The translations under genes and the position numbers were made by a program. From positions 1 through 26,425 of IMG/VR virus record IMGVR_UViG_3300017783_000171: a stretch of DNA of 26,425 nucleotides, one strand, 5' to 3'. Below are positions 1 to 24,757 of the stretch, piece after piece (the first letter of the stretch is position 1; each line of letters begins with the position of its first letter). The notes under the pieces were generated by a model, which saw only the letters and a program-made list of their open reading frames with translations, made no database searches and was not told the origin of the DNA. This DNA is from a virus.

Positions 1-295
1 CAATCCTTGCTTCTGCTACCTCTCTTGCAATAGGTATTAATTCATCTACGATAGCGGCAATAGGCTCAGTTAATATCTGTGCAGTTTCTTCAATACCGCT
101 AAATGCGTCAAGCATAAGACTGTTCATCGTAGTTGACATAGCCTGTGCATCTTTCAGCATACGTGCGGCTTGGAATGTACCTATAACATCGAAATAAACT
201 CTAGATGCACCTGCTCTTAGGACTACCATTAGTATGCCGACTAATACAACCATTACAGGGCTTGTTACGCCTATTATATCAACAGGAACAATCAT
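1..295 (-). CDS. Tape measure protein, N-terminal 98 residues (runs off the left edge)
   Basis: This frame starts with ATG at 293-295 and stays open to position 1, so only the N-terminus is visible. It begins with a hydrophobic, membrane-like segment (about residues 2-27, from VPVDIIG to VVLRAG). A helical stretch follows (FDVIGTFQAARMLKDAQAM, then MNSLMLDAFSGIEE) that resembles the start of phage tape measure proteins. The call rests mainly on position: it directly follows the frameshifting tail assembly chaperones, where siphoviruses encode the tape measure, which sets tail length and is threaded through the tube. GGAG lies 10 nt upstream of the chosen ATG. An earlier ATG at 300-302 is in another frame and opens only 7 codons. 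The total length cannot be judged here. Confidence 0.6.
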   Translation of the reverse strand, partial: MIVPVDIIGVTSPVMVVLVGILMVVLRAGASRVYFDVIGTFQAARMLKDAQAMSTTMNSLMLDAFSGIEETAQILTEPIAAIVDELIPIAREVAEARI

Positions 296-347: not shown

Positions 348-629
348 CTAAGTGTTGTTTAAGCCTTCTTGATTACGTTTTCTAGCCTCTCTTCTAGCGT
401 TCCTACGGGCTACGACTGAGGATGCGTCATCACCTCTTAGTGGTGTTAAGCCACCCTTACCTTTTTTAGAGGCTTGTTTAGTCGCATCTGCTATTTTGTC
501 GTTGATGTCTATGGCTACGTTAAGGTCTAACTCAAGCAAGTGTCTACCTTCCGGTTGACTATAATGCAACCATAACTCAGACGGTAGTGTTCCTTTGAAG
601 GCCATGCAAAGTGAGGGTGCGACCCTCAC
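348..629 (-). CDS. Tail assembly chaperone, C-terminal (T) extension expressed by -1 frameshift
   Basis: This 93-codon frame has a possible GTG start at 629, but it is more likely expressed as the second half of a frameshift fusion with the gene at 626-976. The frame is open upstream to the slippery site at 635-641, so a -1 slip gives a 209-residue fusion (114 residues from the first frame, then 95). The extension begins DFVRVAPSLCMAF and ends in a strongly basic, Ala/Arg-rich tail (VVARRNARREARKRN). In lambda, gpG and gpGT are made this way at about 30:1, and the T part contacts tail tube subunits during assembly on the tape measure. Here too the pair lies between tail tube and tape measure. 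No good ribosome binding site precedes the GTG, and that GTG lies inside the hairpin. Confidence 0.72.
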   Translation of the reverse strand: MRVAPSLCMAFKGTLPSELWLHYSQPEGRHLLELDLNVAIDINDKIADATKQASKKGKGGLTPLRGDDASSVVARRNARREARKRNQEGLNNT

Positions 630-641
630 GAAGTCAAAAAA
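611..641 (-). promoter_or_regulatory. -1 programmed ribosomal frameshift signal (slippery heptamer plus hairpin)
   Basis: Read on the minus strand, the zero frame runs AAT TTT TTG ACT TCG TGA. T_TTT_TTG (641 to 635) is a canonical X_XXY_YYZ heptamer. A 5-nt spacer (634-630) separates it from a perfect 8-bp stem, GTGAGGGT/ACCCTCAC (629-622 with 618-611), with a 3-nt loop. The zero-frame stop TGA (628-626) lies inside the hairpin. All three standard parts of a -1 signal are visible, and the position at the end of the first tail chaperone matches the known phage location. The efficiency cannot be read from sequence. Confidence 0.85.
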
Positions 642-976
642 TTGACTGCACCTTCCTCATCGTCACCACGTATGAAAGCAAGTAAAGGCATCAATTCTTC
701 TAGAGTAAACAAATCAATATCAAAATCGGCAGGTTCTATAATACACTTAGGAAGCCAATCAGTCAACTGTGCTTCTATACCGCACCCTGCTTTATCTAAA
801 GCATCTGCTAACTCCATTTGTTGTTCATTACTCCAATCTTCTACCTTATCCATGTTAAATGACTTAAACACTCTAGCCTGAGCGTTACTTAGTTTTAACT
901 TAGCAAGACCTGATGCTTGTTTAAGGGTAATTTTTGTTCCATCGTCTAATTCAAACTCTTTCTTTTTTACCGGCAT
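626..976 (-). CDS. Tail assembly chaperone (G-like)
   Basis: This 116-residue, acidic, mostly helical protein starts at ATG 976. It begins with a Lys/acidic strand-like segment (VKKKEFELDDGTKITLKQA) and ends in an acidic helical part rich in Leu and Glu (DIDLFTLEELMPLLAFI). Length, charge and place after the tail tube gene fit the gpG class of siphovirus tail assembly chaperones, which coat the tape measure until tube polymerisation. The last codons contain a slippery TTTTTTG followed by a hairpin, so a fraction of ribosomes should read into the 348-629 frame. It overlaps the preceding small gene (951-1112) by 26 nt. The function rests on synteny and the frameshift signal rather than on a recognised motif. 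Confidence 0.72.
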   Translation of the reverse strand: MPVKKKEFELDDGTKITLKQASGLAKLKLSNAQARVFKSFNMDKVEDWSNEQQMELADALDKAGCGIEAQLTDWLPKCIIEPADFDIDLFTLEELMPLLAFIRGDDEEGAVNFLTS

Positions 977-1370: not shown

Positions 1371-2999
1371 TCAGTAGGCACTAGTCTGCAACTGTGCGCC
1401 CTTCATCTTAACCATGATAGCCGCCGCCGCACCTTTAGCCTTTGAATCGTAGAAGGCTTGGAAGTTAACAGACATTCTAGCAGGGTCACGACCGCTAACT
1501 GATGCTTCGGGGGCTTCAAACCTAACGTTGTAGAGAGTAATCTCCATGTGGTCTGCGTCTGTTGCATCCTGAAACTTCAACTTTAGTGCAGGTCGCCCTG
1601 CTCCACCGTGTAGTTTGTGAACGGCAGTAGAAGTAGCCAAGTCTGCGTAAGTAGGCTCTCCCTTTAGTCCGGTAGTATCGGAATAAATAATCTCGTTAAA
1701 CTCCATACTACCTGTAATTTCCCTAGTCCTTGAAGGTGGGATTCTTTGAATTGTGTTTGCTCCGACTGCGTAAGCCGAATCAAGGTCACGGTTGATATTC
1801 ATTTCTAGACTGATAGACTGAACCTTAGTAGATGTGTTTAGTGAACCATCTACGTACAACTCAGCACCGGAAAAGTGTAGAGCGTCTACATCGTTACCGG
1901 AGAAAGAAACTCCTGTCTGAATAGCAACAGGTGTTTGTTCTGCCTGTCCTAAAAAGTCAGCAGATGCCATAACGTACTCGTTTAGGTTTGCACTTAGGGA
2001 TAGCCTTGTGCTTACCATACCTGTGAAAGTGTGTTCCTTAGCCTCTCTACCCACACGGATAGTAAAAGAAGGATAAGCGTGTGAAGCCGTAACAGGCTCA
2101 GTAAATACGTGCTTGTTTGCTCCACCGTTAACTGTGGTAACTGCACCGCCGTTTGTTCCGCCTACTGCCGCTCTTGCCGCCGTTTCTCCTGTTAGAACAA
2201 CGGATTGTGTATTTGCTCTACCTGAACCCGGAACAGTAATGTAACCGTAGATTTTGCCCGGCTCTATTCCATTACCATAGTTTTCGTATTGTAGGCAAAC
2301 TGTGTCGTCTGCTACTGTTCCCATAGCCGCCGCACTAGAAAAAGTGTTATCTGCTTTGTAAGTAGTAACTCCTGTCAATGTGTCTGTGCTTACACCTGTG
2401 TATGTAAAGTATGTTCCGGCAGTTGTAGAGTTGTCTGTGGGTGAGCCTAGAATACCGTAGCCTATGTTAGTAGCGTCAACTGTTAGACCTGAGTGAGTAG
2501 CCCATGCCGCTCCTTCTCCTGAGTGTAGAACAATTGACTCAGAACCATTTGTACCGCTTAGGTCTTGTGCGCCATCTACTGCGCCTATTGCACCATTTCT
2601 GACTTCCCAATATCCGATAGTTTCAGAACCTTGTACCATAGTATTTTGTGTTTCTGTGTAACCGTAGCCTCTACCGTCAACTTGATTTGAGATTGCGGCA
2701 AATGCTACTGCATCCCAAAACTCGTTTTCAGCAGTTACGGGTAAGAAAGAGGACATAATGTTCCCCATAAAATCGTCAGGTTGAACGGCAAAGTTAACTG
2801 AACCTTCACCATACTTGGTGTTAGTTACGGCCTTTGATGCCACCTGTCTGCTCATATCGTTCCTTGTTAGCAAGTCGAAAGTTTGCTTAAACGACTCGTC
2901 ATCTACTTCTCCAAAAGTTTGTGTTCCGCTTGGCTCTACTCCGAAGGTAGTTTCTTTCTCAATCGAAACATATCTATTTATCCATTCTGCTCCCGCCAT
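1371..2999 (-). CDS. Major tail (tube) protein
   Basis: This is a 542-residue protein from ATG 2999. A GTG at 3026 would add 9 residues, but GAGGT ends 6 nt before ATG 2999, and MAGAEWINRYVSIEKETTFG is a typical tube-protein start. The N-terminus (VSIEKETTFGVEPS) and the region around residue 350 (KEHTFTGMVSTRLSLSANL) resemble phage tail tube proteins of the phage_tail_3 type. It contains a Gly/Ser/Thr-rich middle (about residues 130-300) that looks like inserted beta-rich surface domains, so it is longer than most tube proteins (150-300 residues). The C-terminus returns to tube-like strands (MEITLYNVRFEAPEASVSG). It stacks as hexamers to form the tail tube. Its place between the terminator-like gene and the chaperone/tape-measure genes is the canonical one. 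Confidence 0.8.
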   Translation of the reverse strand: MAGAEWINRYVSIEKETTFGVEPSGTQTFGEVDDESFKQTFDLLTRNDMSRQVASKAVTNTKYGEGSVNFAVQPDDFMGNIMSSFLPVTAENEFWDAVAFAAISNQVDGRGYGYTETQNTMVQGSETIGYWEVRNGAIGAVDGAQDLSGTNGSESIVLHSGEGAAWATHSGLTVDATNIGYGILGSPTDNSTTAGTYFTYTGVSTDTLTGVTTYKADNTFSSAAAMGTVADDTVCLQYENYGNGIEPGKIYGYITVPGSGRANTQSVVLTGETAARAAVGGTNGGAVTTVNGGANKHVFTEPVTASHAYPSFTIRVGREAKEHTFTGMVSTRLSLSANLNEYVMASADFLGQAEQTPVAIQTGVSFSGNDVDALHFSGAELYVDGSLNTSTKVQSISLEMNINRDLDSAYAVGANTIQRIPPSRTREITGSMEFNEIIYSDTTGLKGEPTYADLATSTAVHKLHGGAGRPALKLKFQDATDADHMEITLYNVRFEAPEASVSGRDPARMSVNFQAFYDSKAKGAAAAIMVKMKGAQLQTSAY

Positions 3000-3047
3000 A
3001 TTGATACCTCTATGTGGCTTACTCACGCATTATGTGTCTTATCAACA

Positions 3048-5801: not shown

Positions 5802-6047
5802 TCACATTTGAGTTACGCCTAAAGCCGCTCCTACTATCCCTATTAATGCTAGTAAGGCTTTTTGCATATTAGCCATATACGTAGCAATAAGACCGTTTGT
5901 GATTTCTAACTCGGTTGCGACCTTAGTTAGACCGGTCTTAGTTTCTATCTGTGACTGCACTACTTGTTGTATAAGGGAGTCATGCTTTTCTACGGCATTC
6001 TCTAGTCCTTCAACCTTAACTTCTAGGACTGCTAGTGATTCACTCAT
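5802..6047 (-). CDS. XhlA-like coiled-coil membrane protein (holin/hemolysin type, putative)
   Basis: This is an 81-residue protein. Residues 4-50 show heptad-like spacing of Leu/Val/Ile (LAVLEVKVEGLENAVEKH, LIQQVV, LTKVATELEI). One membrane segment follows at about residues 63-78 (KALLALIGIVGAALGV), with almost no tail after it. Length and architecture match the haemolysin XhlA family of phage cell-surface proteins, which cooperate with a holin in lysis. The match is architectural only. GAGGG lies 6 nt before ATG 6047. It overlaps the upstream gene by 8 nt. In an archaeal virus no peptidoglycan hydrolase would be expected, and none is seen near it. Confidence 0.55.
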   Translation of the reverse strand: MSESLAVLEVKVEGLENAVEKHDSLIQQVVQSQIETKTGLTKVATELEITNGLIATYMANMQKALLALIGIVGAALGVTQM

Positions 6048-6411
6048 CCGAAGCCCTCAACCTTGCAATCAACTCGTCTTTCTTACCGCTAACTGCAAGA
6101 CCTTTCTCCTTTAGAGCGTCTTTCAATTCTGCCACCTTATACTTATCGTAGCCATCTTCTAGAACCTCTAGTTGGTCTTTTGCTTCTTCTACCTTGTCTT
6201 TTATGTCGTCAACGGAATCAATGATTTCATCTAGGGTAATCTTACCATCAGCCGCTAGAGCCTGATATTTCTTATAACCCCATGCCGCCAATCCTATTAG
6301 TGCGGCTACTGCCACTAGGAGTATTTCTACATCATCTAGAAGGGATGACGATTCATTGATACAATCAACAATACAATCTGCTATCGTTTCGTTAGTGCTA
6401 TTATTCTGCAT
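6040..6411 (-). CDS. Membrane-anchored SAP-domain protein
   Basis: This is a 123-residue protein from ATG 6411, preceded by GGTGATTAAA; the in-frame GTG at 6420 lies inside that binding site and is rejected. One membrane segment spans about residues 29-46 (EILLVAVAALIGLAAWGY). An acidic helix or coiled coil follows at 58-86 (LDEIIDSVDDIKDKVEEAKD). A SAP-type helix-extended loop-helix lies at 92-119 (KVAELKDALKEKGLAVSGKK, then DELIARL). SAP domains usually bind DNA or RNA; similar HeH/SAP motifs occur at ends of phage structural proteins. The N-terminal 28 residues contain two Cys and would lie on the other side of the membrane. This architecture in the small-membrane cluster is unusual; I cannot assign a function. 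Confidence 0.65.
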   Translation of the reverse strand: MQNNSTNETIADCIVDCINESSSLLDDVEILLVAVAALIGLAAWGYKKYQALAADGKITLDEIIDSVDDIKDKVEEAKDQLEVLEDGYDKYKVAELKDALKEKGLAVSGKKDELIARLRASDE

Positions 6412-6416
6412 TTTAA

Positions 6417-6584
6417 TCACCTTTCGTATATTATTTGTTTAACTGAGGAAAGTGGGATGACTGTAAAGTGCCTCTCTTCGTTACCTCGATAAAGTTTGTA
6501 CCCATGCGGTGTTTCTTCAATGTTTACATTAGTGTATGACTTCTCCGGCGGTTGATATACTATCTTACCTATTCTTTTTGCCAC
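6417..6584 (-). CDS. Microprotein of unknown function (55 aa, GTG start)
   Basis: This 55-codon frame reads MAKRIGKIVYQPPEKSYTNV and continues NIEETPHGYKLYRGNEER to the stop TGA at 6417-6419. It starts at GTG 6584, and GGTGAT ends exactly 3 nt before the GTG, the same geometry as GGTGATTAAATG at other genes here. Its stop TGA lies within the GGTGAT of the following gene. Spacing and the stop/start junction make it very likely translated. The sequence has alternating hydrophobic residues (GYKLYRG, HFTVIPL) that suggest a small beta fold. I do not recognise it. Confidence 0.65.
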   Translation of the reverse strand: MAKRIGKIVYQPPEKSYTNVNIEETPHGYKLYRGNEERHFTVIPLSSVKQIIYER

Positions 6585-6973: not shown

Positions 6974-7330
6974 TTACGTGTGTATTAGACCCATAGGATG
7001 CTTGTCAGCAAACCATGTAGGTTGTTTTGCGTAAGCATGAAAATAATTATCAACATCTGTCAATACTGCGTTATCTCCTACGGCGGCTAGAACAGTAGCA
7101 GGTAAATCCAATAGAGCCTGTCTGTAAGCCTTCAATTCGTTTTTCTGTGTAGTGCTAAGGTCATCATATAAAAGTGGCTTAGATTGGAAAAAATCAATAA
7201 ACTGTTCCAAAGCACCATCTCTACAAGCCCTAAACTTCGCCCAAGACTGTTCCGAAGTCATTGCGACATCGCTTGCACTACATACTGTTCCTTCTACTGC
7301 GCTCCATATATTTGTACCCATAATTATCAT
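6974..7330 (-). CDS. Tail fibre assembly chaperone (Phage_tail_APC-like)
   Basis: This is a 118-residue protein. The stretch NELKAYRQALLDLPATV (about residues 64-80) contains the YRQAL-D-P signature seen in phage tail assembly chaperones of the Phage_tail_APC family, preceded by FFQSKPLLYDDLSTTQ. These proteins help fold or trimerise fibre tips and are usually encoded right after the fibre. Here the start overlaps the fibre's stop (ATGA at 7327-7330). An alternative start is ATG 7321, which gives MGTNIWSAVEG; GAGAGG lies 2 nt before the first ATG and 11 nt before the second, so the choice is open. Not a membrane protein. Confidence 0.7.
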   Translation of the reverse strand: MIIMGTNIWSAVEGTVCSASDVAMTSEQSWAKFRACRDGALEQFIDFFQSKPLLYDDLSTTQKNELKAYRQALLDLPATVLAAVGDNAVLTDVDNYFHAYAKQPTWFADKHPMGLIHT

Positions 7331-10300
7331 TGCCTCTCAAAATACGCTGAAAACCTAGCAGGGCCAACTTTTGTTGATGTGTTGTAACCTGATGGTGATT
7401 CTACTCTTACGTTAAAAGTATCTCCTGCTGAAAAATCTATGTCATAATTCGTCTTTGATATGATAAAAGCATTACCGCTACTACCACTAGCATTACCCGT
7501 CATGGGGTCATTCTCTCCCGACCCATTCTTGAATATGTCAATCGAGAGATTACTTGAGCCTGTGGATGAGTGCTTGTTACCACAATGAACATAGAGAGCC
7601 TTAAGAGTGCAATCGCACCCAACAGGAATACCGAAATCCACACCGCTTGAGGACTTGGTAGTGTTCTGTGCCCCGTTACCATACGAGAAGGAGAATCCGT
7701 TAGCGTTACCTGCCCCGCTTGTGGATGATAGGTAATCGTCGGACTCTTCACCGAAGATAAGGAATGAATCTGTGGAAGAGCCACCACCACCACCCGCATT
7801 AGCATCTACATACGCCTTGATAGATTGTTGAGTTGCTAAAGCCGTATTGGAGTTAGAGGACATATTATCTTGGTCTAGAACAGTTGTAACTCTAGCACCA
7901 CTACCACCTAACTGTAAACCATTAACAGTAAAATCTGCAACCGTAGTGCCTGTGACTGTTGTTTGGTCGCCCGCAACCATTATTTCTACTATTGTTGCGG
8001 CATTTCCTTGATTTGTTCCACCACCTAATTTTACTTTGTTATTACCACTAGAATCTGAATCACCTACTAGTAAAATAACAGGTTCTTCGGCACTTTTGTA
8101 ATGTGGCATACCTACTCTACTAAACTTTCTAGTATTATCTGATATTGATGAAGCAGTTACATCGCTACCCGTAATTAAACCAAACTGATTATTGCCCGGA
8201 ATTATACTTAGCCTTCCACTACTAAAAGTCAATCCTGATTCTGCATTCATGGCATCTGTGCCTGTTGCAGTTACAACCCTATTGTTGACACCATTTGACA
8301 TAAAATCAGATACATCTACGCTAAAAGTAGTTGTAGATAAATTAAGGCCTGTTCCTGCTGAATAGGTTGTATCGGTATCTAAATCATCAACTACCAAATC
8401 AATAGTACCGTCAGCATCTTGATACGTTGCACTAATTCTAGTTTCGGTGTTGCTACTAAACATAGCACCAACTATATCTTGTACTTGTTCAGTAGAAAGT
8501 TGAGTGTTAGTATTAGTATCAGTAGATGCAATGGTTAGTGTTCCTGCCGTGTCATCGTAGGTTACACTTACGTTTGAACCCGCAGTAACTACCCCTGCTA
8601 CATAATCCTCAACTTGTTCCTGTGATAGTTGTGTGTTGGTGTCTGTGTTAGTAGTCTTACTTGTAAAACTTAAATTACCACTAGCATCTGTTGTCAATAC
8701 TTGACCTGCACTTCCATCGGCCGCAGGTAACTTCCAAGTTACATCGCTACTAACAGTATCGGGCGCACGTAGAGCGACATAGTTAGAAGTATCTGCATCA
8801 TAGAATCTAACCTTTGTCTGTGACCACATTCTCATATCACGCCACGAACCAACATGGTCAGACATAATTCTAAATATGTTAGAACCATTAACATCTGCAT
8901 ATATTCCTGTTTGACCATCTAAGTTTAGTAGCCCTGTATCGTTTTGTATTAAACCCTCAGTACCACTATGGGTAATAAACATATCACTACCTGCACCAAA
9001 ATAAAGTCTTTGTGCATCTATTGGAAGAAATACGTGTCCGGTGTCTGAGTTTATTTTTAATCTAACAATACTAGTATCTGCGGTACTTTCTGCTTGACCA
9101 TAACCTGCCATCGGATTTGAGTTACCTGATGTTAATTCTAAGTTGCCTCTACCATAACCATCACTAGCAGTCCATCTTACACCACCTGCTACTCTTCTAC
9201 CTGTATGACCTGACGAATAATCATTGTTAAAGAATAGATAACTACCTATTGTATCTCCTGCGGCTAAAGAAGCATCTGTTGATTTCAGTAAAACGGAAGG
9301 GATAAGTCCACCTATTGTCAAGTCATAAGTACCTGCTTGACCTATATTACCTAAACTTATAGAGCCGCCAAAATCAACATTGTCATCAGTCTGTGTTCCA
9401 AAGTGTATATCTCCACCTAAGTCTGAGTTTAGTGCAGATATTACTTCTGCATCGGATAGTTGTGTATTGGTATTAGTGTCTGTTGCGTTGATAGTAACCG
9501 AGTCATTTGTGGCGTTTGTAGTAATGCTTACATTGCTACCTGCTACAAAGGTTAGTGTATCAGTAGTTGAGTCTGCCGCAACTGTTGTCTGACCGCTTAC
9601 TGCTACATTACTAAACGCATTTTGATTTGCTTCGCCGCTAGCACCTGCTTGATTTGCCCATGTTAATGCCCCCGAACCATTTGTTACAAGCACTTGATTT
9701 GCACTACCGTCAGCATTAGGTGTAGTACCCGGAAATGTAAGTATCTCTCTTCTTACTCCCCAACCACCGTCATCTGATGTAAGTGCAGTACCTACATCTG
9801 CTTCTCCACTTCTAAAGTAAAGAGGCTCAGTATCAACGCTATTGGTTGAGTGGTCAGAAGCGGAAAATATCTGCCATGCTCTATAATTGTCTGACCATCC
9901 TTTCATAGTAAGCACCGAATCCCAACTGTTAGTCGAGGATGCTATATCGTCTGTGAATGTAAAGACCGCAGATTTGTCTGAAAAATCTGTCGGCCTCATT
10001 TCCGTACTTGTTGATGGCCCTTCATCTCTAGCATCTCTCAACCTTACTTCTGATACATTGTCGCCTATCCATGTCTTTACTCTACCCATAGTGGTTTTAC
10101 GAGTAGTACCACCTGCTCCGTCATCTATAATGAGTAAATCTGCATCTTGGATGCTTGCCCCTATGTCTGTAAGACCATCTACATCTAAGTTAAAAGTAGT
10201 GCTAGATAGGGCTAGTCCTGTTCCTGCTGAATAAGTAGTATTTGTATTTGCGGCTACTGAAAATACACCATTTGTAGCAGTTACGTTAGACCCCGCCATT

Positions 10301-11733
10301 GCGGTTGCTAAGTCTGCTATGGATTCTTTCTTAGTTGCCCCTGTTGATGAACCATCTAAGAATAAGATGTAGTCATCAGCAACCGCTACTGCGGCTTCTG
10401 TGGCTTCACCTAAATCCACGTTAAAAGTAGTACCGCTTAAATCTAGTAAAGTACCTGCTGAGTATGTGGTATTGGTATTAGTATCAGTAGAAGCGATAGT
10501 AATATTATTTGCATCTGTATGTGTTAATGTAACATTAGAACCCGCTACAAACTTAACATCTTGTGTACCTGAACCTGCCCCACCCTTAGTTAACCTAAGT
10601 ATTATATCGTCAGTAGAATCTACAAAAGAAGATGTGTATGTGTTTTGTGTGTTAGTATCACTTACTGTATTAGTGAATGTAATTTTATTACTACTTCTAG
10701 CAATACTAAGACCTGTTCCTGCTTCAAGAACAACAATATTACTACCACCACTACTATTAGTTAGAGTTATCTTTTCTTCATCAGTATTATCACCATCAGA
10801 AGTACCAAGTGAATAGGTAGTATTTGTGTTAGTATCAGGATTTGCTACCCACTCTAACTCATAACCACTAGAAGGAAATGCTAGTACATCCCCTGCACTA
10901 GCCCCTGTGTTATCTGCGGGAAATACAAAGGTCTTGTTAGTACCATCGTGGCCTAGTGATAGTTTACCTAAGTGGTCTATACTCATTACCTTTCTTGGTG
11001 TGGTGTTGTTACCTGTCCAAAAATCTATATTTGAGTAAGATGAAGAACCACTATTGTAAATCCTAGAGTTTCTATCGTCATCGGGATTGTTCAGCCTAAT
11101 ACCTCTATTTGTTTTAATCACAAGCCCATTAGTAGTATTAAATTGTAAGTCGGCTTCTGCCGTAAGTGTGCCGTCGCCATCAATTGTCAATACTGAATCT
11201 GCGTCAGTAGAGTTAGTAATATCTAAAGCAATAGTCATATCGTAAGGGTCGCCATCTGAGCCTGTGCTTGTATCAGTCCAATTAGTAGTAATACCTGTTC
11301 CGCCAATCAACTTGACCTCTTTACTATGACTAACAGTAACTTCTGTACCATCGCCATCTTCTAGTTGAAATGTAGTGAGTTGATTTGTATTTGTATTTGC
11401 GGTAAAACTAAGACTACTTTGCATATATGCTTGAATAACAGATACATCCATTCTCTTCAATACACCGCCATCGCTTAGGACTAACTCATCTGTGCTTGCT
11501 AGACCACTAGCCAACTCAGTTGCGTTTGTAATATCACTTACTGCGAAACCCGCACTACCTGATGTGTCTATTTCATCTTGTAGATTATCTAGGGTCATGT
11601 ACTTAAACTCGCTTGCTGAGTTATCCCAAATAATAACACCGTCAGCACTACCGCCGCTATCTGCTACGCTTTCGTCAATCGCAGTTAGGTGGGATATTCC
11701 ACCTAGCGTATTTAAGAAATGTATTTCACCCAT
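7327..11733 (-). CDS. Giant fibre protein B (1468 aa), probable receptor-binding fibre
   Basis: This long, Ser/Thr/Asn/Asp-rich beta-repetitive protein has Thr-Asn linkers (TDTNTNTQLS, TNTNTTYSAGT) separating short strands, the style of cyanophage and other marine tail fibres. The motif YSAGTGLxLSxTTFxxDV occurs three times. Blocks AVSGQTTVAADS, DGDNTDEEKITLTNSSGG and VLEAGTGLSIARSSNKITF have close counterparts in fibre A (11738-16024). The C-terminal 150 residues after a Gly run (NAGGGGGSS) look like a globular beta-sandwich tip (VDFGIPVGCDCTLKALYVHC, DTFNVRVESPSG). No chaperone-protease (S74) motif was noticed. The start is fixed by GGTGATTAA directly before ATG 11733. It is followed by a Phage_tail_APC-like chaperone. 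Fibre identity is strong; whether it attaches to tail tip, neck or head is not shown. Confidence 0.82.
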   Translation of the reverse strand: MGEIHFLNTLGGISHLTAIDESVADSGGSADGVIIWDNSASEFKYMTLDNLQDEIDTSGSAGFAVSDITNATELASGLASTDELVLSDGGVLKRMDVSVIQAYMQSSLSFTANTNTNQLTTFQLEDGDGTEVTVSHSKEVKLIGGTGITTNWTDTSTGSDGDPYDMTIALDITNSTDADSVLTIDGDGTLTAEADLQFNTTNGLVIKTNRGIRLNNPDDDRNSRIYNSGSSSYSNIDFWTGNNTTPRKVMSIDHLGKLSLGHDGTNKTFVFPADNTGASAGDVLAFPSSGYELEWVANPDTNTNTTYSLGTSDGDNTDEEKITLTNSSGGSNIVVLEAGTGLSIARSSNKITFTNTVSDTNTQNTYTSSFVDSTDDIILRLTKGGAGSGTQDVKFVAGSNVTLTHTDANNITIASTDTNTNTTYSAGTLLDLSGTTFNVDLGEATEAAVAVADDYILFLDGSSTGATKKESIADLATAMAGSNVTATNGVFSVAANTNTTYSAGTGLALSSTTFNLDVDGLTDIGASIQDADLLIIDDGAGGTTRKTTMGRVKTWIGDNVSEVRLRDARDEGPSTSTEMRPTDFSDKSAVFTFTDDIASSTNSWDSVLTMKGWSDNYRAWQIFSASDHSTNSVDTEPLYFRSGEADVGTALTSDDGGWGVRREILTFPGTTPNADGSANQVLVTNGSGALTWANQAGASGEANQNAFSNVAVSGQTTVAADSTTDTLTFVAGSNVSITTNATNDSVTINATDTNTNTQLSDAEVISALNSDLGGDIHFGTQTDDNVDFGGSISLGNIGQAGTYDLTIGGLIPSVLLKSTDASLAAGDTIGSYLFFNNDYSSGHTGRRVAGGVRWTASDGYGRGNLELTSGNSNPMAGYGQAESTADTSIVRLKINSDTGHVFLPIDAQRLYFGAGSDMFITHSGTEGLIQNDTGLLNLDGQTGIYADVNGSNIFRIMSDHVGSWRDMRMWSQTKVRFYDADTSNYVALRAPDTVSSDVTWKLPAADGSAGQVLTTDASGNLSFTSKTTNTDTNTQLSQEQVEDYVAGVVTAGSNVSVTYDDTAGTLTIASTDTNTNTQLSTEQVQDIVGAMFSSNTETRISATYQDADGTIDLVVDDLDTDTTYSAGTGLNLSTTTFSVDVSDFMSNGVNNRVVTATGTDAMNAESGLTFSSGRLSIIPGNNQFGLITGSDVTASSISDNTRKFSRVGMPHYKSAEEPVILLVGDSDSSGNNKVKLGGGTNQGNAATIVEIMVAGDQTTVTGTTVADFTVNGLQLGGSGARVTTVLDQDNMSSNSNTALATQQSIKAYVDANAGGGGGSSTDSFLIFGEESDDYLSSTSGAGNANGFSFSYGNGAQNTTKSSSGVDFGIPVGCDCTLKALYVHCGNKHSSTGSSNLSIDIFKNGSGENDPMTGNASGSSGNAFIISKTNYDIDFSAGDTFNVRVESPSGYNTSTKVGPARFSAYFERQ
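8320..10468 (-). repeat. Dispersed YSAGTGLxLSxTTF repeats within fibre B
   Basis: Three copies lie near 8320-8364, 10188-10234 and 10424-10468. At DNA level the plus strand shows variants of GTTCCTGCTGAATA (near 8350 and 10219; GTACCTGCTGAGTA near 10450), preceded by AAAAGTAGT. The copies are spaced unevenly, so this is a dispersed coding repeat, not a tandem array. They likely arose by duplication or recombination between fibre segments. Confidence 0.65.
10650..10800 (-). repeat. Fibre module shared with fibre A (copy in fibre B)
   Basis: This segment encodes DGDNTDEEKITLT, followed after a short Gly/Ser loop by VLEAGTGLSIARSSNKITFT and NTVSDTNT. Fibre A has the same order with DGDNTDEEKIRLT and VLEAGTGLSIARDGDKITFA at about 14413-14580. 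The order and near identity over some 45 residues indicate a common module. Confidence 0.75.
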
Positions 11734-11736
11734 TTA

Positions 11737-11742
11737 ATCACC
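11737..11742 (-). promoter_or_regulatory. Ribosome binding site GGTGAT (type example)
   Basis: GGTGAT followed by TAA then ATG 11733. The TGA within it (11740-11738) is the stop codon of fibre A. The same arrangement fixes starts at 5071 (GGTGATTAAATG), 17364 (GGTGATTAAGTG), 6411 and 6584, with variants at 5610, 5797, 16937 and 18267. GGTGAT pairs with AUCACC at the 3' end of archaeal 16S rRNA (established). Confidence 0.8.
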
Positions 11743-14700
11743 CCACTAACGAATCCATTGCTATCAGATTCCAATTTGACCTTATTTGTGCCGCTCCATT
11801 ACCTGCTTCTGTGGTAGTCACGTTACCACCTGTGTTATTAACAACTACTAGTGCAAGATAATCATTTCCGTCAGATGCAGTAAGCGTTTTCCATTGTATA
11901 GGAAACTCAGTCGTATCTCCTAGAGAAGCATACTCAGTTTGGTTTACAGTTGTAGAATCTTTGATATGACAAATTGTTTCATACGTGGCTAGATAGTTAG
12001 AAGAGTGAGCCGACGTTTGGCTACCGTCTATCTGTATAGTCACGTGTACTTTAGCAGACAAGAAAGTTTCTAGAGAAGCGTTATCACCATAGTTAAATTG
12101 CCCTACTATTACTTCTGTACCATTATTCCAAGAACCGGCAAAAGCCTCTCTAGTAGACGCATACACGTTTACGCTATTAGGTCTTACGCAATCAAAACTA
12201 CTAGGAGCGGCCGTACTCATACTAAATCCGCTAGTAGTGGTTAGTCTAGCACTACCTTTACCGACATAACTAGACCCCGTTACCTGTGTTCCTGTTACAT
12301 TTCCGCTAGAAGTAAGTGAGCCTGTTTTTATTTCTCCACCTACGTGTAAGGGAGCAGTAGGGGATAATTCATGTATTCCTACTCTCGGTGTACTTGTTCC
12401 GTTTTCTTGAAAAACCATTACAGTGTTTAGGTCTGTTCCTGTGGTATCAGCCATCATAAACTTAGCACGGTCTGTTCCTACGTGTAGAGCAAACTTGTCA
12501 TCGCTATCATATGAAACAACTAATTGTTCATTGTTAGTGCTTGTTAATTGTAACATACCTGTTGATACTTTACCGGTACTAGGGTTATAGGTAAGGTCGC
12601 CGTCAGACTCTAGACCTATGCTAGTGCTACCATCAACATCTGCACCTGCGGCAAATACAATAGCGTTATCCTCATTTGTGCTTTCGTTATCTGTAACTAC
12701 TACGTTTGTGGCAGTAGTAGCAGTAGCCGAATTACCTGTGCAAGAGCCGGAAGAGCCGCTTACGTTACCTGTGACATTTCCTGTGACATCTCCTGTTAAA
12801 TCACCTGTAATTGTACCCGAAACTGTAAGCGCACCTGTTCTTGCTAATTGCATTATGTTTGAACCTGCCGCATTTCTCCAATAGAAAGAATCTGCATCTC
12901 CATTATCTCGCAAAACGAATCTTAGATGTCTGTTGCTTGGGCCAATAATATCGCCAAACAAATCTGTACCTGCGTGATTTATAGTTAAGGGGCTAGTCAT
13001 TGTCAGGGAAGTTAATGTACCGACAGAAGTAATATTTGTCTGTGCGGCAGTTTGTATTGTTCCTGTTACATCACCTGTTAAATTACCTGCAAAAGCAGTA
13101 GATGTTAAAACTCCCGTATCAGGCTTGTAACTTAGTTTAGTTTCTGTTTCAAGAGCCTGAGAACCCGTTGCACCATCTACAAAGACAGGATAAACAGTCT
13201 CATCTGTTTCCTCGTTATCTATAATATTGATAAACCTAACATTAGCCCCATCTATTGAAGCAGTACCACTTAAATCAGCAGACCAATCATAATGTTCTGC
13301 GGCAACAAACCCTGCTAGGTTATCGTGGTTTACTGCTACTGCCGTTGTCGCATCATAGTTAAGTGAACCATCAGCACTTGTAGTAATCCTACTGTTTAAC
13401 CAAGCATTACTATTTGTAGCCCCTGTTCCGCCACTACCAATTGCTAAAGTTGCAGAAAGACCTGCCGCCGTTCCGCTAGTATTTTCATTCTGTAATGCTA
13501 TTGTTCCTGTGGAAGAAGGTAAAGTTACTGTTATGTCAGAAGTAAGTCCTGTAACTCCTGTTAGTAGTGTCTCCTTATCTGTATGTACGCCTGTTGCGTT
13601 ACTTTCAAACTGTATTCCGCCCGATGTGCTAATAGTTTCTACATTGTTAGTCGTCGTAGTACCTGTAACTACAATTGAACCGGGAAATGTAGTTGTAGTG
13701 CTACCATCACCGATTTGAAGTGTGTTGCTAGGCATAGTTGCTCCTAGAGCGGTTCTTACATCAGCAGTTGTGGTTGTGTTTGTGTCTGTTGACGCAATAG
13801 TAACAACACCTAACGCTTCTGATAAAGTAATATTTGTACCTTTCTTTAATACTAAGGCTTCGCTTGTTTCTAATGTTTTATCAGCACTTCCATCTCCCGC
13901 AGTATCAACTTGGATTATTCTAAATGTATTAGTATCAGAAACAGTATTAGTAAAAGTAATAGTACCATCAGCAGTTGTTTCTGTGCTAATCCCTGTACCA
14001 CCCGTAAAGGTTAATGTTTCTCCATGTGCTATTGTTGTAGAGTTAGTATTGGTATCTACTCCTATGTTAAATGTGGTTAATTGATTTGTGTTAGTATCTG
14101 TATTAGTAACCTTATCATCATTTAATCTGATTCTTTTTTCCATGTGTCCTATTGCTTCTACTATTGTATCAGTTGCCGCAACATCAGAAGTAGTACCTGA
14201 TACATTTAATCCTGTTAATACTTTACCAATTACACCCGCATTATCAAGTTGTGTATTTGTATCTGTCACGGTACTAGCGATAGTAATAGTACCATCGGAT
14301 GTTGAAGTAGTAGTTATTCCTGTACCTGCCGCAATAGTAATAGTGTCATTGTGATTAACAGTAGTAGGAGTAGTGTTTGTAGTACCTATTAATGTAAACG
14401 TAGTAAGTTGGTTTGTGTTAGTATCGCTTACGGTGTTGGCAAACGTAATCTTATCTCCGTCACGTGCAATACTTAATCCTGTACCTGCTTCTAAAACTAT
14501 ATCGTCTGTTGCACTACCCGCCGCACCACTTTGAGTTAGCCTTATTTTTTCTTCGTCTGTGTTATCACCATCTACACAAGAAATAGCGTATGAGTTTTGA
14601 GTGTTATCATTATTGTCTGCCGAAGAAAAAGTAATTGTATCTGTTGTGGCGTTAGTGGTAATAGTCATACCACCTGCCGCTACTAGAGTTAGGTCATCTC

Positions 14701-16024
14701 CGGCAGAAGCCGCAAGGGATGTCTGTCCTGACACCGCAATACTGTCAAACGCATTACCACCGCCACCTGCGGTTGACGACCACTCAAAACCGTCGCCACC
14801 ACTATTAATTGCGAGTACCTTACCTGCCGGACTGCTTGTGGGAAACGGTAGTATATCTAGTGTGTTTTGTGCATCTCCGTATAGTATACCCAATTCTGAT
14901 ACCCTATCTAGCCCTGTTCCACCGGAAGTAACGGGGATTCTAGCAGGACTGCCTCTAGACCTGTATACTCCATCTGCTACCTGCACGTAATTCCAATCAC
15001 CTAGTATGTTAGGTCTTTGAACAGTATGAATCTCAGTACAATTCATATCTGAGAACACACCTTCTGCGTATAATTTAGCCCCGCTATCTACTCTTAATGA
15101 ATTACAATACAAAGTTACGTTGTTTCTTACATTCACCCTATGAGTAGAGTTACTAGCCTTTCCTATTTCTATATTAAAATATTTAGCCGAAAAGTATTTT
15201 TGATGACCAAAGTTTGTATCTCCTGTCACCGGCAAGTAAAAGTTTGTTGCAGTAGGAGTAAACTTAACTGTGGAAAATCCCCAATTTGCAGTTATCTTAT
15301 TTCTATTAAGACTTATGGTAGCATCAGGACTAGTATCGCAGTCTAATACTAACAACCCCTCAAATACAAACTTCTTACTTAGGTCGTTTTCTGTGTAAGT
15401 CTTTGGTTCTATACGGCAGTTACTACTAAAAGACAAAATATCTACAAACCCGTAAGTATTTGTAGAACCGGAAGCACAATATGTAGGGCTAAGTACGACT
15501 AGAGCATTTGCTTGTAGTGAGGAAACTATTACGGTAGGATATACGCCATCTTCCATAAGTATGGTACAAGAAGAAGAAGGGAAGAAGGCAAACACCATTG
15601 CACTTCTACTAGACTCATTAGAAAACATACCTAATGGTTCTGTTTGCATATTAGTTGTATTGCTAAAGTAAACGTATTTTGTAGAAGTACCGTTATGTCC
15701 GTTAAACTTTATTATGGCCGCACCGGTTGCACTAACACACTTTTCTTTCTGTATTAGTAAAGCATTTGTGTTTGCTTTTAGTGTAACTGTGCAGTCGTCA
15801 ACAGTAAATGCTCTTCCGGTTGCACAATCAGGCTCTATTTTTATACTGTTACACTCAAAATTACTATCAAAAAGACAAGAGTGTGTAGCCGTACCTTTGA
15901 AAACTAAATCATCTGTGCCTGTGGCCGAAGGTGCGCCACTCTCAGTCCAATTTGCCGCTACTGACGGGTCTGAATCAGTTGCAGTATTTCCGCTACTTCC
16001 GCCAACCCATGTGAATGTTGCCAT
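11738..16024 (-). CDS. Giant fibre protein A (1428 aa) with N-terminal beta-helix-like domain
   Basis: The N-terminus (MATFTWVGGSSGNTATD, then VAANWTESGAPSATGTDDLV) matches a W-GG...NW...P...DD pattern common at the start of marine phage adhesins and beta-helix passenger domains. About 350 residues of non-repetitive beta structure follow. The middle is Thr/Asn-linked repeats as in fibre B, including DGDNTDEEKIRL and LEAGTGLSIARDGDKITF. Near residues 1065-1100 there is a low-complexity run (TGDVTGNVTGNVSGSSGSCT) well known in cyanophage fibres. The C-terminus (about 140 residues, from SVNVYASTREAFAGSWNNG) is probably a globular tip. GGGGGT lies about 8 nt before ATG 16024. It ends inside the binding site of fibre B, so the two are likely co-translated. 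Two fibres with different tips suggest recognition of more than one receptor. Confidence 0.8.
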   Translation of the reverse strand: MATFTWVGGSSGNTATDSDPSVAANWTESGAPSATGTDDLVFKGTATHSCLFDSNFECNSIKIEPDCATGRAFTVDDCTVTLKANTNALLIQKEKCVSATGAAIIKFNGHNGTSTKYVYFSNTTNMQTEPLGMFSNESSRSAMVFAFFPSSSCTILMEDGVYPTVIVSSLQANALVVLSPTYCASGSTNTYGFVDILSFSSNCRIEPKTYTENDLSKKFVFEGLLVLDCDTSPDATISLNRNKITANWGFSTVKFTPTATNFYLPVTGDTNFGHQKYFSAKYFNIEIGKASNSTHRVNVRNNVTLYCNSLRVDSGAKLYAEGVFSDMNCTEIHTVQRPNILGDWNYVQVADGVYRSRGSPARIPVTSGGTGLDRVSELGILYGDAQNTLDILPFPTSSPAGKVLAINSGGDGFEWSSTAGGGGNAFDSIAVSGQTSLAASAGDDLTLVAAGGMTITTNATTDTITFSSADNNDNTQNSYAISCVDGDNTDEEKIRLTQSGAAGSATDDIVLEAGTGLSIARDGDKITFANTVSDTNTNQLTTFTLIGTTNTTPTTVNHNDTITIAAGTGITTTSTSDGTITIASTVTDTNTQLDNAGVIGKVLTGLNVSGTTSDVAATDTIVEAIGHMEKRIRLNDDKVTNTDTNTNQLTTFNIGVDTNTNSTTIAHGETLTFTGGTGISTETTADGTITFTNTVSDTNTFRIIQVDTAGDGSADKTLETSEALVLKKGTNITLSEALGVVTIASTDTNTTTTADVRTALGATMPSNTLQIGDGSTTTTFPGSIVVTGTTTTNNVETISTSGGIQFESNATGVHTDKETLLTGVTGLTSDITVTLPSSTGTIALQNENTSGTAAGLSATLAIGSGGTGATNSNAWLNSRITTSADGSLNYDATTAVAVNHDNLAGFVAAEHYDWSADLSGTASIDGANVRFINIIDNEETDETVYPVFVDGATGSQALETETKLSYKPDTGVLTSTAFAGNLTGDVTGTIQTAAQTNITSVGTLTSLTMTSPLTINHAGTDLFGDIIGPSNRHLRFVLRDNGDADSFYWRNAAGSNIMQLARTGALTVSGTITGDLTGDVTGNVTGNVSGSSGSCTGNSATATTATNVVVTDNESTNEDNAIVFAAGADVDGSTSIGLESDGDLTYNPSTGKVSTGMLQLTSTNNEQLVVSYDSDDKFALHVGTDRAKFMMADTTGTDLNTVMVFQENGTSTPRVGIHELSPTAPLHVGGEIKTGSLTSSGNVTGTQVTGSSYVGKGSARLTTTSGFSMSTAAPSSFDCVRPNSVNVYASTREAFAGSWNNGTEVIVGQFNYGDNASLETFLSAKVHVTIQIDGSQTSAHSSNYLATYETICHIKDSTTVNQTEYASLGDTTEFPIQWKTLTASDGNDYLALVVVNNTGGNVTTTEAGNGAAQIRSNWNLIAMDSLVG
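14413..14580 (-). repeat. Fibre module shared with fibre B (copy in fibre A)
   Basis: This is the counterpart of 10650-10800. It lies after a second shared block (NAFDSIAVSGQTSLAAS near 14715-14760, matching NAFSNVAVSGQTTVAADS near 9580-9625). In fibre A the two blocks are adjacent; in fibre B they are about 1 kb apart and in the other order, so modules have been shuffled. Confidence 0.7.
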
Positions 16025-18693: not shown

Positions 18694-19173
18694 TTAAATC
18701 ATCTCCTTTATTTCATCGTATGTTCTTGCTCTCATGTTACTTTCGTTGCGAGCAAGAGTACCATTCCAAGCCTTTGCCCATGCGTTATAACATCGAGAAT
18801 AAGTGTCCTCATCGGACTCAACCATGCTTCCGTTTAGGTAGTTAGCCACAACAGGCTTTGCCTCTTCGGATGCGATTACAGGAGCGTTAGCGATTGGTTC
18901 AGAAGTAACCTCTTCCATAACTACGGGGGTTGGCTCAGGATGAGCAGTTTCCCACGAAGCAATGAGAGTTTCTAGAGTGTCGCTTCTTAGGTCATCGTGA
19001 CCGGACATACCCAATTCGGTTGCCTTGTTCACTAGAACCATGCGAGCCTCTTCTACTCTTGCTTCTTCTGCGGCCACATATTCTGCTACTCTCGACTCAG
19101 CGAGAACAAGCGAAGCCGTCAACTCTTCTATCTTATCGTTAATCTCAGGTGTTTCTACTGTTTCTTCACTCAT
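18694..19173 (-). CDS. Possible nested scaffold protein from an internal start (159 aa)
   Basis: In frame with the protease gene, ATG 19173 (Met478) opens MSEETVETPEINDKIEELTA, exactly where the linker after the protease domain ends. GGAG lies 11 nt upstream, a slightly long but usable spacing. The product would be an acidic coiled-coil protein (SRVAEYVAAEEARVEEARMV) with a basic helical C-terminus (YNAWAKAWNGTLARNESNMR). Lambda makes its scaffold (Nu3) the same way from inside the protease gene C (established). Here it is inferred. Confidence 0.45.
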   Translation of the reverse strand: MSEETVETPEINDKIEELTASLVLAESRVAEYVAAEEARVEEARMVLVNKATELGMSGHDDLRSDTLETLIASWETAHPEPTPVVMEEVTSEPIANAPVIASEEAKPVVANYLNGSMVESDEDTYSRCYNAWAKAWNGTLARNESNMRARTYDEIKEMI

Positions 19174-20604
19174 AGTATCTAAATCTCCTGTTGGTTGAGT
19201 ATCGTCAGGTGTGGAATGACTTATCAAGGTTGCTTCTATTTTCCTTTCGTCTTTTATTCTCTTCACACTTTCTATATTTGCTTGAGGGTAGGCAGGGCGG
19301 TACACAATCGCCAAATGGTCGAATGTAAAGTCCTCTCCAAACACAATGCCATCATCATCGGCTTTGACCGGTACGCCCGACCCGCCTATGCTCACACCGT
19401 AGTCTTCTTTGAGAGTGTAAAGTCCTGACTCTAGAACGTCAAACAATTCCGGCCTAGTCACGTGCGCTATATATCTTACCTCATAACCACCGTTTGTCTT
19501 AGGTAGATAAGTTGCACTCTTGATGTAACCGACATTGGATTTGTCTAGTCCTTCTGTCGCTCTTCCAAAACCCGGCCCTAGAGGGTTCGGGTCAGGATGA
19601 TTTAGAGTTAGGTCTGCCCCTTGCATCTGCATAGCAGTAGTTTTTGCACCCTCGTTAGTCAAAGACCAACTGTTCTTGTTGAACCCATCGTGGAATGCAA
19701 CTCCCTTTATCTCTATAATAGTCTGTCCTGTGGATGCTTCTATCATTGCGGTAGTTTCATTTACTTGTAGGTCAATAGTAACTGCAACTTTCTTGCACTC
19801 ACCATCTACCATTTCTTCTCCGTAGCCACATTCGGAAGCATACTCATCTTTCTTTTTGTAGCCTTCTACATCAAACTTATGGCCTTCGTGTGCTTTCATG
19901 CACTCTTCTTTACTGTTACCCATAGCCTGACACCTTGACATAAATGCTTCGTGACTTTCATCTTCTTTTGGTGTAGGTAGTGCCGCTTCTGCTTTCATGC
20001 ACTTGCCCATCTCAGCGCACTTTGCTTGAGTAGTGCAACTTGAGCATACTTTGTAATGTTCTGCTTCGGCCTTTTCTTTCTTGATAGGTACGCAGTTAGG
20101 TACTTTACGACCATTCTTCATTTTCATGCCGTACTGCTCGTAGCCTGATGTGCATGGGTCATCTGCTCTTTTTGCTTCTACATCAGAACCACATACACAC
20201 TCACCTTCACATTCGCAAGCATCTTCACAACCGCAACCACATGGAATATCTGCCTCTACTTTCTTTCCACCACGCCATTGTCTGCAAGACCAATAGCGAG
20301 CCTTCCATTTTGGGCCGGGCGAATCGCAGTTGTGTCGTGAACGGAATGATTTTCTCCTAGCAGGGTCATCTCTTTTGATTTCCATGTTAGGGTCGCCAAA
20401 GCGTACTATTACTACTGTTCCTTTTTCATTCTTAGTATATACACCAAACTTTTTGTTAGCACCCTTTGTCCTAAATGGTTTATTGAGTGTAACGCTACGG
20501 CCTTGATATTCTGCGGCAATAGCATTTTGGTTATCATCTACTGTGTGTTCGTTCCAATTTTCGTAGGCGACTGCCTCTCCACCACAACCGCATCCGCACG
20601 ACAT
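18694..20604 (-). CDS. Prohead maturation protease with Cys-rich N-terminus and C-terminal scaffold
   Basis: This 636-residue protein has three parts. Residues 1-270 hold about 22 Cys (MSCGCGCGG; CGCGCEDACECEGECVCG near 122-139; CSSCTTQAKC near 187) plus a conserved-looking block (VRFGDPNMEIKRDDPARRKS, then HNCDSPGPKWKARYWSC) that I recall from other phage head-maturation genes, as also DPCTSGYEQYGMKMKNGRKV. Residues 295-450 look like a U35/S78-type serine protease, with candidate His336 (LTLNHPDP), Ser405 (DYGVSIGG) and a late LAIVYRPAYPQANI motif. Residues 478-636 are an acidic coiled-coil scaffold-like region, then a helical end. It cleaves scaffold and capsid arms during head maturation. 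No ribosome site precedes ATG 20604; a TATA-like TTTCATAA lies about 28 nt upstream. The catalytic assignment is from pattern. Confidence 0.72.
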   Translation of the reverse strand: MSCGCGCGGEAVAYENWNEHTVDDNQNAIAAEYQGRSVTLNKPFRTKGANKKFGVYTKNEKGTVVIVRFGDPNMEIKRDDPARRKSFRSRHNCDSPGPKWKARYWSCRQWRGGKKVEADIPCGCGCEDACECEGECVCGSDVEAKRADDPCTSGYEQYGMKMKNGRKVPNCVPIKKEKAEAEHYKVCSSCTTQAKCAEMGKCMKAEAALPTPKEDESHEAFMSRCQAMGNSKEECMKAHEGHKFDVEGYKKKDEYASECGYGEEMVDGECKKVAVTIDLQVNETTAMIEASTGQTIIEIKGVAFHDGFNKNSWSLTNEGAKTTAMQMQGADLTLNHPDPNPLGPGFGRATEGLDKSNVGYIKSATYLPKTNGGYEVRYIAHVTRPELFDVLESGLYTLKEDYGVSIGGSGVPVKADDDGIVFGEDFTFDHLAIVYRPAYPQANIESVKRIKDERKIEATLISHSTPDDTQPTGDLDTMSEETVETPEINDKIEELTASLVLAESRVAEYVAAEEARVEEARMVLVNKATELGMSGHDDLRSDTLETLIASWETAHPEPTPVVMEEVTSEPIANAPVIASEEAKPVVANYLNGSMVESDEDTYSRCYNAWAKAWNGTLARNESNMRARTYDEIKEMI

Positions 20605-23287: not shown

Positions 23288-24757
23288 ATGAGCGATGCTC
23301 CAACGAAACGCTACTTTCGTGGCGGAAACCAATTGATTGACAAGTATGCGTCAGAAATGCAATTCTCTACTGAACGTGAGTTTGCTCGATTTCTGCATTC
23401 AATAGAACCTGATAGAACAGTAGGTGGTTGGCGAAACGCTATACTAAGATGGAAGAAAAAAGGTGGTGTTATGAATTACTCTAAGTATTCAGCATACAAC
23501 GGCGATAAAGCCAAAGAACCTAGTAGAGTAGGTACGCACTATGACAAGACAACCGATGTGTATTTGTCATACCTACCTTCCCAAGAATCCCTAGTAAACG
23601 TAAGCGGTGAAACACATAGGGCTATGCGTCACTCGTATTCTTTTGATGGCGACAATCTAAGCATAGATGAGATGGCTAGAAAATACTCAAAGTCTTCTAC
23701 TTTCATACGTGAGTACATTTCGGCTTTTAGTTGGACTCATACTATGGATGCGTTTACAGACGAAGAAATACTAGATAAGAGCGTAGATGAGTTAGTAGAA
23801 ACATCCCTAGCATCAAGACGTAGACAAGTAAGAGAAAAAGCAAACAAAAAAATGTGGAACGACTTAGAGAAAGATGCAAACAGAATGCGTTTGTTAGATG
23901 ACACACTACTAAATGAGTTTCGTGAGGCACTAAGTAAGCAAAACCTAGCACCTAAGAAAGTAAGTAAGCGAAAAATGAAAGATGCAGAACCATACGCAGT
24001 AGTTATATCCCCAACAGACCTTCACTTTGGCGCAGGGTCATGGATTGATGAAACAGGTAGCCATTACGATACAGTAGAAGCAAAGAGCAGACTAATTGAC
24101 AGGACTAATAACCTAATAACTAGACTTCCTAGTAGACCTGAGAAGATTATACTAGCAACAGGCTCAGATTGGTTTCACATAGACAATGAAGAAGGTTCTA
24201 CCACCAAAGGCACTATGCAAGACTTATCCACTAGTCCTGCTCAGATATTTATTGATGGTTGCGAGTTAGCAAGAGAACATATTGATATGCTTAGAGCCGT
24301 ATGTCCGGTAGAAGTAGTATTTATGCGTGGTAATCACGATAGACAAATGGCTTTAGCCCTAATGATGTATTTAAGGGCGACTTACGAAAATGTTAATGAT
24401 GTAGACGTAATAGTTGACCCTAAACTAAGACAGTATATTACATGGGGTAACAATTTGATAGGCTTTACGCATGGTGACGGTGTTAGGGGTAATGATTTAC
24501 CACTACTTATGGCATCCGAACAAAGAAAAGGGTGGGGTGATTGCGAACATCACACTTGGTTTCACGGACATCTTCATCATCAGCGTTTACTTGAGAAAGG
24601 TGGCACTACTGTTATCCAATTACCAAGTTTGGCCGGTGCTGATAGGTGGCATTACCGAAAGGGTCACGTTTTGGCGAGAGCAGGTATCTCCGCCCACTTA
24701 CTAGATAAAGAATTAGGTTTAATAGGTAATTTGTTCGCACCCGTATTGAGTGAGTAG
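23288..24757 (+). CDS. Helix-turn-helix / calcineurin-like metallophosphoesterase, in the small-terminase position
   Basis: This is a 489-residue protein. The C-terminal half has the full set of metallophosphoesterase motifs: TDLHFG (243-248; Asp244, His246), TGSDWFH (291-297; Asp294), MRGNHDR (347-352), GFTHGDG (392-398) and HGHLHH (426-431), all metal ligands intact. The N-terminal half is different. Residues 27-60 (STEREFARFLHSIEPD) and especially 124-150 (LSIDEMARKYSKSSTFIREY) look like helix-turn-helix units, followed by a charged helical linker (SRRRQVREKANKKMWNDLEK). Small terminases start with such DNA-binding domains, and this gene lies 3 nt before the large terminase, where the small subunit is normally encoded. 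It may recognise DNA and hydrolyse phosphodiesters; the substrate is unknown. It is first in a probable leaderless operon. Confidence 0.8.
   Translation: MSDAPTKRYFRGGNQLIDKYASEMQFSTEREFARFLHSIEPDRTVGGWRNAILRWKKKGGVMNYSKYSAYNGDKAKEPSRVGTHYDKTTDVYLSYLPSQESLVNVSGETHRAMRHSYSFDGDNLSIDEMARKYSKSSTFIREYISAFSWTHTMDAFTDEEILDKSVDELVETSLASRRRQVREKANKKMWNDLEKDANRMRLLDDTLLNEFREALSKQNLAPKKVSKRKMKDAEPYAVVISPTDLHFGAGSWIDETGSHYDTVEAKSRLIDRTNNLITRLPSRPEKIILATGSDWFHIDNEEGSTTKGTMQDLSTSPAQIFIDGCELAREHIDMLRAVCPVEVVFMRGNHDRQMALALMMYLRATYENVNDVDVIVDPKLRQYITWGNNLIGFTHGDGVRGNDLPLLMASEQRKGWGDCEHHTWFHGHLHHQRLLEKGGTTVIQLPSLAGADRWHYRKGHVLARAGISAHLLDKELGLIGNLFAPVLSE

Follow-up and report, generated by a model that had tools for sequence, protein, structure and literature searches.

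Overlapping G and T frames in the tail region

The stretch of viral DNA analysed here, 26,425 nucleotides long (IMG/VR virus record IMGVR_UViG_3300017783_000171, positions 1 to 26,425; hereafter the window), carries near one end two overlapping tail genes, G and T, whose open reading frames (ORFs) are out of register by one nucleotide. A preliminary description based on the sequence alone had proposed that they are joined by a complete cassette for programmed -1 frameshifting, and the heptamer, the spacer, the hairpin, the stop enclosed in it and the open -1 frame all lie where it had placed them (Table 1); recomputing the fusion gave the same 209 residues. The junction reads AAT TTT TTG ACT TCG TGA on the minus strand, so that a zero-frame heptamer of the form X_XXY_YYZ is found inside the overlap and an 8-bp hairpin follows it after 5 nt, within the distance of about 5-9 nt expected of a downstream RNA structure. 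The zero-frame TGA falls inside the 5' arm of the hairpin, which in isolation has a folding energy of -13.1 kcal/mol, and the predicted junction peptide of the fusion is ...NFLDFVR....

Table 1. Features of the G/T locus and its flanking genes, with positions in the window.
Feature	Positions	Strand	Remarks
Zero-frame ORF, G-like tail assembly chaperone	626..976	-	116 aa; stop TGA 628-626
Slippery heptamer T_TTT_TTG, zero frame	635..641	-	C_CCT_TTN or T_TTT_TTG at the homologous place in relatives
Spacer ACTTC, 5 nt	630..634	-	
Predicted stimulatory hairpin, 8-bp perfect stem GTGAGGGT/ACCCTCAC, loop CGC (3 nt)	611..629	-	both arms constrained at synonymous sites
-1 frame, T-like extension, from slip site to TAG 350-348	348..641	-	97 codons open
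Predicted G-T fusion	348..976	-	209 aa, joined at the heptamer
Candidate upstream element, codons GAA GGT GCA within GAGGAAGGTGCAGT	643..656	-	invariant in 11/11 clade members
Tail tube protein, upstream marker	1371..3026	-	PF18906, E 2.6e-15
Tape measure protein, start only	2..295	-	full 1,094-aa ORF in contig L001

The order tail tube, G/T, tape measure is found in the window and in L001, an IMG/VR contig from another sample that extends past the window end. The L001 tape measure protein matches PF10145 (E 9.6e-17) and the tape measure family phrog_28 (E 3e-16), and in all 73 loci with enough flank T is followed by an ORF of 400 aa or more. The AlphaFold2 model of G (pLDDT 82) consists of a beta-hairpin plus helices and has several annotated chaperones among its top matches to viral models (E 0.006-0.03), and one family member matches phrog_344 at E 0.06; the predicted structure of T is made of long helices and gave no informative match. 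The assignment of the two frames to tail assembly chaperones, made in the preliminary description, is borne out by position, between tail tube upstream and tape measure downstream, and weakly by fold. The position is that of a tail assembly chaperone pair of the lambda G/GT type; the functions of both proteins are putative.

Taken alone, the single-sequence evidence for the cassette is suggestive. Two perfect 8-bp hairpins with short loops were found against about 2.9 expected in a window of the same composition, and the combination of a heptamer, 4-10 nt and a stem of 7 bp or more is seen once, with 0.235 expected per strand. As the hairpin is near chance, the cassette gains its significance from being kept by relatives and not from the window itself.

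The -1 register is kept while the slip site changes

Scans of IMG/VR with the G and T alignments identified 106 distinct loci that encode G and T together; as they share ancestry, they do not count as independent events. T stands in -1 relative to G in 105 of them and in +1 in one (L012), and neither an in-frame fusion nor a separation of the two genes was found among them, so the register on which the preliminary description had staked its claim is retained almost throughout. Each of the 105 -1 loci has its slippery motif in the corresponding position, always just past RGDD-EGA[VI], the conserved end of G, and the zero-frame stop follows the slip site by 0-27 nt. A canonical heptamer is present in 94 of the 106 relatives. 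Most carry C_CCT_TTN, 14 carry T_TTT_TTG and about a dozen T_TTT alone, the exact letters depending on the clade (C_CCT_TTG, C_CCT_TTA, C_CCT_TTT, T_TTT_TTG, and A/G/T_CCT_TTT_C or CAT_TTT_C). Of the codon pairs in the overlap, 6.6% form an in-frame XXXYYYZ heptamer, as compared with 0.3% in the rest of G, a ~20-fold enrichment. Because of this shared descent, more weight attaches to the fact that the heptamer changes its identity and the frame relation does not.

In siphoviruses a frameshift between G and T is the norm, and comparison of the sequences makes it very probable that the overlapping G/T frames of this family are likewise expressed through a programmed -1 frameshift of the lambda G/GT kind. 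Several observations weigh against this reading. Neither G nor T has a significant sequence match in Pfam, PHROG or PDB, and the HK97 tail assembly chaperone 2ob9, which ranks second when the G fold is compared with PDB, is a weak and non-significant match (E 0.2, TM 0.37). The window heptamer ends in G, and G-ending heptamers fall outside the commonest eukaryotic form of the slippery rule. Finally, the hairpin is absent outside the clade of the window, which comprises 11 distinct loci, and within these 11 loci the stem hardly varies and shows no compensatory changes.

Structures downstream of the slip site

In the clade of the window the four degenerate codons of the hairpin arms (GTG, AGG, CCC and TCA) are identical in all 11 loci, and the two loop codons and all 10 other conserved fourfold or sixfold degenerate codons of T vary (4/4 as against 0/10 frozen, Fisher p=0.001). 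Folding downstream of the slip site exceeds that of resampled synonymous codons (mean z -2.4). The sister CCTTTTC clade has a different, longer covarying stem at the same distance, in which 97.5% of cells are paired and 12 are double-changed, a number reached in none of 500 shuffles; slid controls scored far lower, a comparison tilted towards the stem because it was derived from the same alignment. In the T_TTT_C clade the covarying stem downstream of the slip site is 14 bp long. Whether heptamer and hairpin are kept in relatives while flanking codons vary was a check proposed in the preliminary description; this holds in the window's own clade, where neighbouring synonymous sites vary, but does not extend to the family, as the hairpin is specific to that clade.

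The hairpin might instead be a by-product of the coding of V-R-V-A-P-S that has no role, the heptamer alone driving slippage. The chance expectation given above and the other clades that do without this hairpin speak for such a reading, yet synonymous freezing is limited to the arms and leaves the loop codons free, and the sister clade places its own covarying stem, with its double-changed cells, at the same distance. We therefore consider a functionless hairpin improbable.

Two further candidates for stimulatory elements were rejected. In the C_CCT_TTG clade (A6) a long-range stem has only 80% of its cells paired, which is weak, and is not claimed; upstream of the heptamer, an internal Shine-Dalgarno stimulator showed no consistent excess over synonymous resampling (mean p 0.39, 87 loci). 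Rfam gave no match. The invariance of the candidate upstream element listed in Table 1 includes two fourfold sites.

T as a probable extension of G

The -1 frame between the zero-frame stop and a conserved methionine is coding-like, with differences per codon position of 0.12/0.05/0.45. The residues F-x-R-V-A-P-S-L-C, between the slip site and this methionine, are conserved in the -1 frame, and the conserved FVRVAPSLCMAFKG is present in the -1 frame of the relatives. This bears on whether T could be made separately, from an independent start or through termination-reinitiation, with AUG 604-602 or GTG 629 as start codon. The ATG 604-602 is in frame with T, 22-24 nt past the zero-frame stop, and ORF callers place the start of T at GTG 629; against this, up to 14 of 105 loci have another residue in place of the internal methionine and no relative has a 4-nt Shine-Dalgarno core before the internal AUG, so that the independent ribosome site named in the preliminary description as evidence contrary to the cassette did not appear. 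As separate synthesis would in addition leave the retention of the slippery motif without a reason, we regard it as very unlikely.

Still less probable is transcriptional slippage, for which the T6 run of the window would be a suitable substrate, in place of ribosomal slippage: most relatives carry C_CCT_TTR, with no run longer than three and the -1 register unchanged, and the downstream RNA hairpin suits ribosomal -1 slippage. That the two frames are an artefact of assembly or sequencing, or the result of a gene having been broken, a concern with a single fragmentary virus contig, has a negligible probability, as the frame relation is common to 105 relatives and L001, which differs from the window once in 6,976 bp, repeats the junction, independent contigs thus ruling out an assembly error.

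Turnover of slip sites and an apparent switch of direction

In a tree of 87 fusion proteins, L012 is nested, with support 99/91, among the T_TTT_TTG loci that form the hairpin clade. At L012:5690-5720 the junction reads GTA TCC TTT CGT TGA; heptamer and hairpin are lost, T is in the +1 frame, and no folding signal beyond chance was found there. The sequence fits +1 slippage of tRNA-Phe from UUU to UUC. No second copy of the L012 +1 junction was found in IMG/VR, so that the switch is known from one contig, and the +1 register could still be due to a one-base error; against an error, the zero-frame UGA comes directly after the site and the T protein is diverged but conserved.

T_TTT_TTG makes a second appearance inside the CCCTTTT clade (L023-L025). 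We propose that the fusion is kept while its machinery turns over: heptamers would interchange, T_TTT_TTG having arisen at least twice, tandem-tRNA sites would decay to T_TTT_C with a covarying stem, and L012 would have passed from -1 to +1 with loss of the hairpin. On the sequences compared, we hold the chances for and against this proposal to be about even.

Loci with only a single-tRNA T_TTT_C site (N_CCT_TTT_C or CAT_TTT_C) are L052, L062, L032, L041, L042, L049, L054, L061 and L070-L072.

Host of the virus family

The preliminary description had taken the virus to be probably archaeal. The genes of the window, a 26-kb fragment limited to structural and packaging genes and a putative exonuclease, give this no support, but the replication genes of long relatives do. 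An RFC small subunit is present in 17 of 18 long relative contigs, its closest PDB match being archaeal RFCS, and an ERCC4 nuclease is found in long relatives as well. The best-covered named matches of their PolB are haloarchaeal tailed viruses, with many bacterial phages matched too. No PCNA was found in the long relatives and no relatives in GTDB genome contigs; G and T have no nucleotide- or protein-level match in named phage records, and capsid and portal have no relatives among them. Because of the archaeal-type replication genes in long relatives, an archaeal host is likely, and by analogy with magroviruses marine Poseidoniales would be the obvious candidate. The G002 contig (L151:8781-18702) carries an archaeal-type replication block with RFC small subunit, family B polymerase, PD-(D/E)XK nuclease and ERCC4 nuclease.

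Other genes in the window

Two adjacent, very large ORFs (7327-11733 and 11738-16024, minus strand; 1,468 and 1,428 aa) contain many repeated TNTT/DTNT-type motifs and have no Pfam match; they probably encode tail fibre or adhesin proteins. A 636-aa protein encoded between the capsid and portal genes (18694-20604, minus) has a cysteine-rich N-terminal part of the CGCGC type and matches only PHROGs of unknown function. The small protein at 6040-6420 (minus) combines a predicted transmembrane stretch with a C-terminal SAP domain (PF02037, E 9e-12), which is unusual among tail genes, and a putative phosphoesterase-type DNA repair exonuclease (23288-24757, plus; phrog_704, E 3e-63) adjoins the large terminase.

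Proposed mechanism and relation to known systems

In the mechanism that we propose, slippage itself, its efficiency and the protein functions, as well as the archaeal host, are inferred. Most ribosomes would read G and terminate at the UGA, whereas a minority would be held up by the hairpin, 5 nt past the slip site, and would slip by -1 at U_UUU_UUG, where tRNA-Phe and tRNA-Leu could re-pair on UUU UUU. The slipped ribosomes would continue in the -1 frame and produce the 209-aa G-T fusion. If lambda is a guide, G would coat the tape measure protein, the portion added by T would recruit the tail tube subunit, and what is conserved may be the ratio of G to GT, as set by the efficiency of slippage.

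As in lambda G/GT, the site lies between tail tube and tape measure, with a -1 heptamer near the end of G and T present only as an extension (lambda per PMC5009743). Unlike lambda, G and T have no detectable sequence similarity to chaperone families, the heptamers are of pyrimidines, and in the clade of the window a simple strong hairpin follows 5 nt downstream.

The earlier view that examples with such a clear signal are poorly documented for archaeal viruses needs qualifying, as G-T shifts have already been predicted in haloarchaeal tailed viruses, namely HVTV-1, HCTV-1/2/5 (-1), HSTV-2 (+1) and Hardycor1 (-1) (PMC5009743, PMC8211752, PMC7911831), and the case of HSTV-2 has led to the view that +1 shifts are in use by some archaeal viruses (PMC5009743). 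These are tailed viruses of archaea, as the present one probably is, with a predicted -1 shift in the same gene pair, but the slip sites described here, T_TTT_TTG and C_CCT_TTN, are of a different class and the present family is marine, uncultivated and a different virus family. The only experimentally proven archaeal case, the -1 shift in the alpha-fucosidase gene fucA1 of Saccharolobus solfataricus (PMC8211752), resembles the present one in joining a -1 heptamer, A_AAA_AAT, to a putative stem-loop (PMC8211752), and differs in that fucA1 is a cellular gene and sets no viral structural ratio. The new and surprising part lies in how slip sites and structures turn over across the family and in the apparent switch of L012 to +1.

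To the one proven frameshift known so far from archaea (PMC8211752) and the handful predicted in haloviruses, abundant uncultivated marine viruses add over a hundred loci with clear comparative evidence, in which slip sites, stop positions and stimulatory structures change while the -1 fusion stays. Their sequences are ready to be tried in an archaeal translation system, and they give an annotation rule for a gene pair that would otherwise be called as two unrelated ORFs. If the proposed turnover is true, it would provide a natural series for how archaeal recoding signals evolve.
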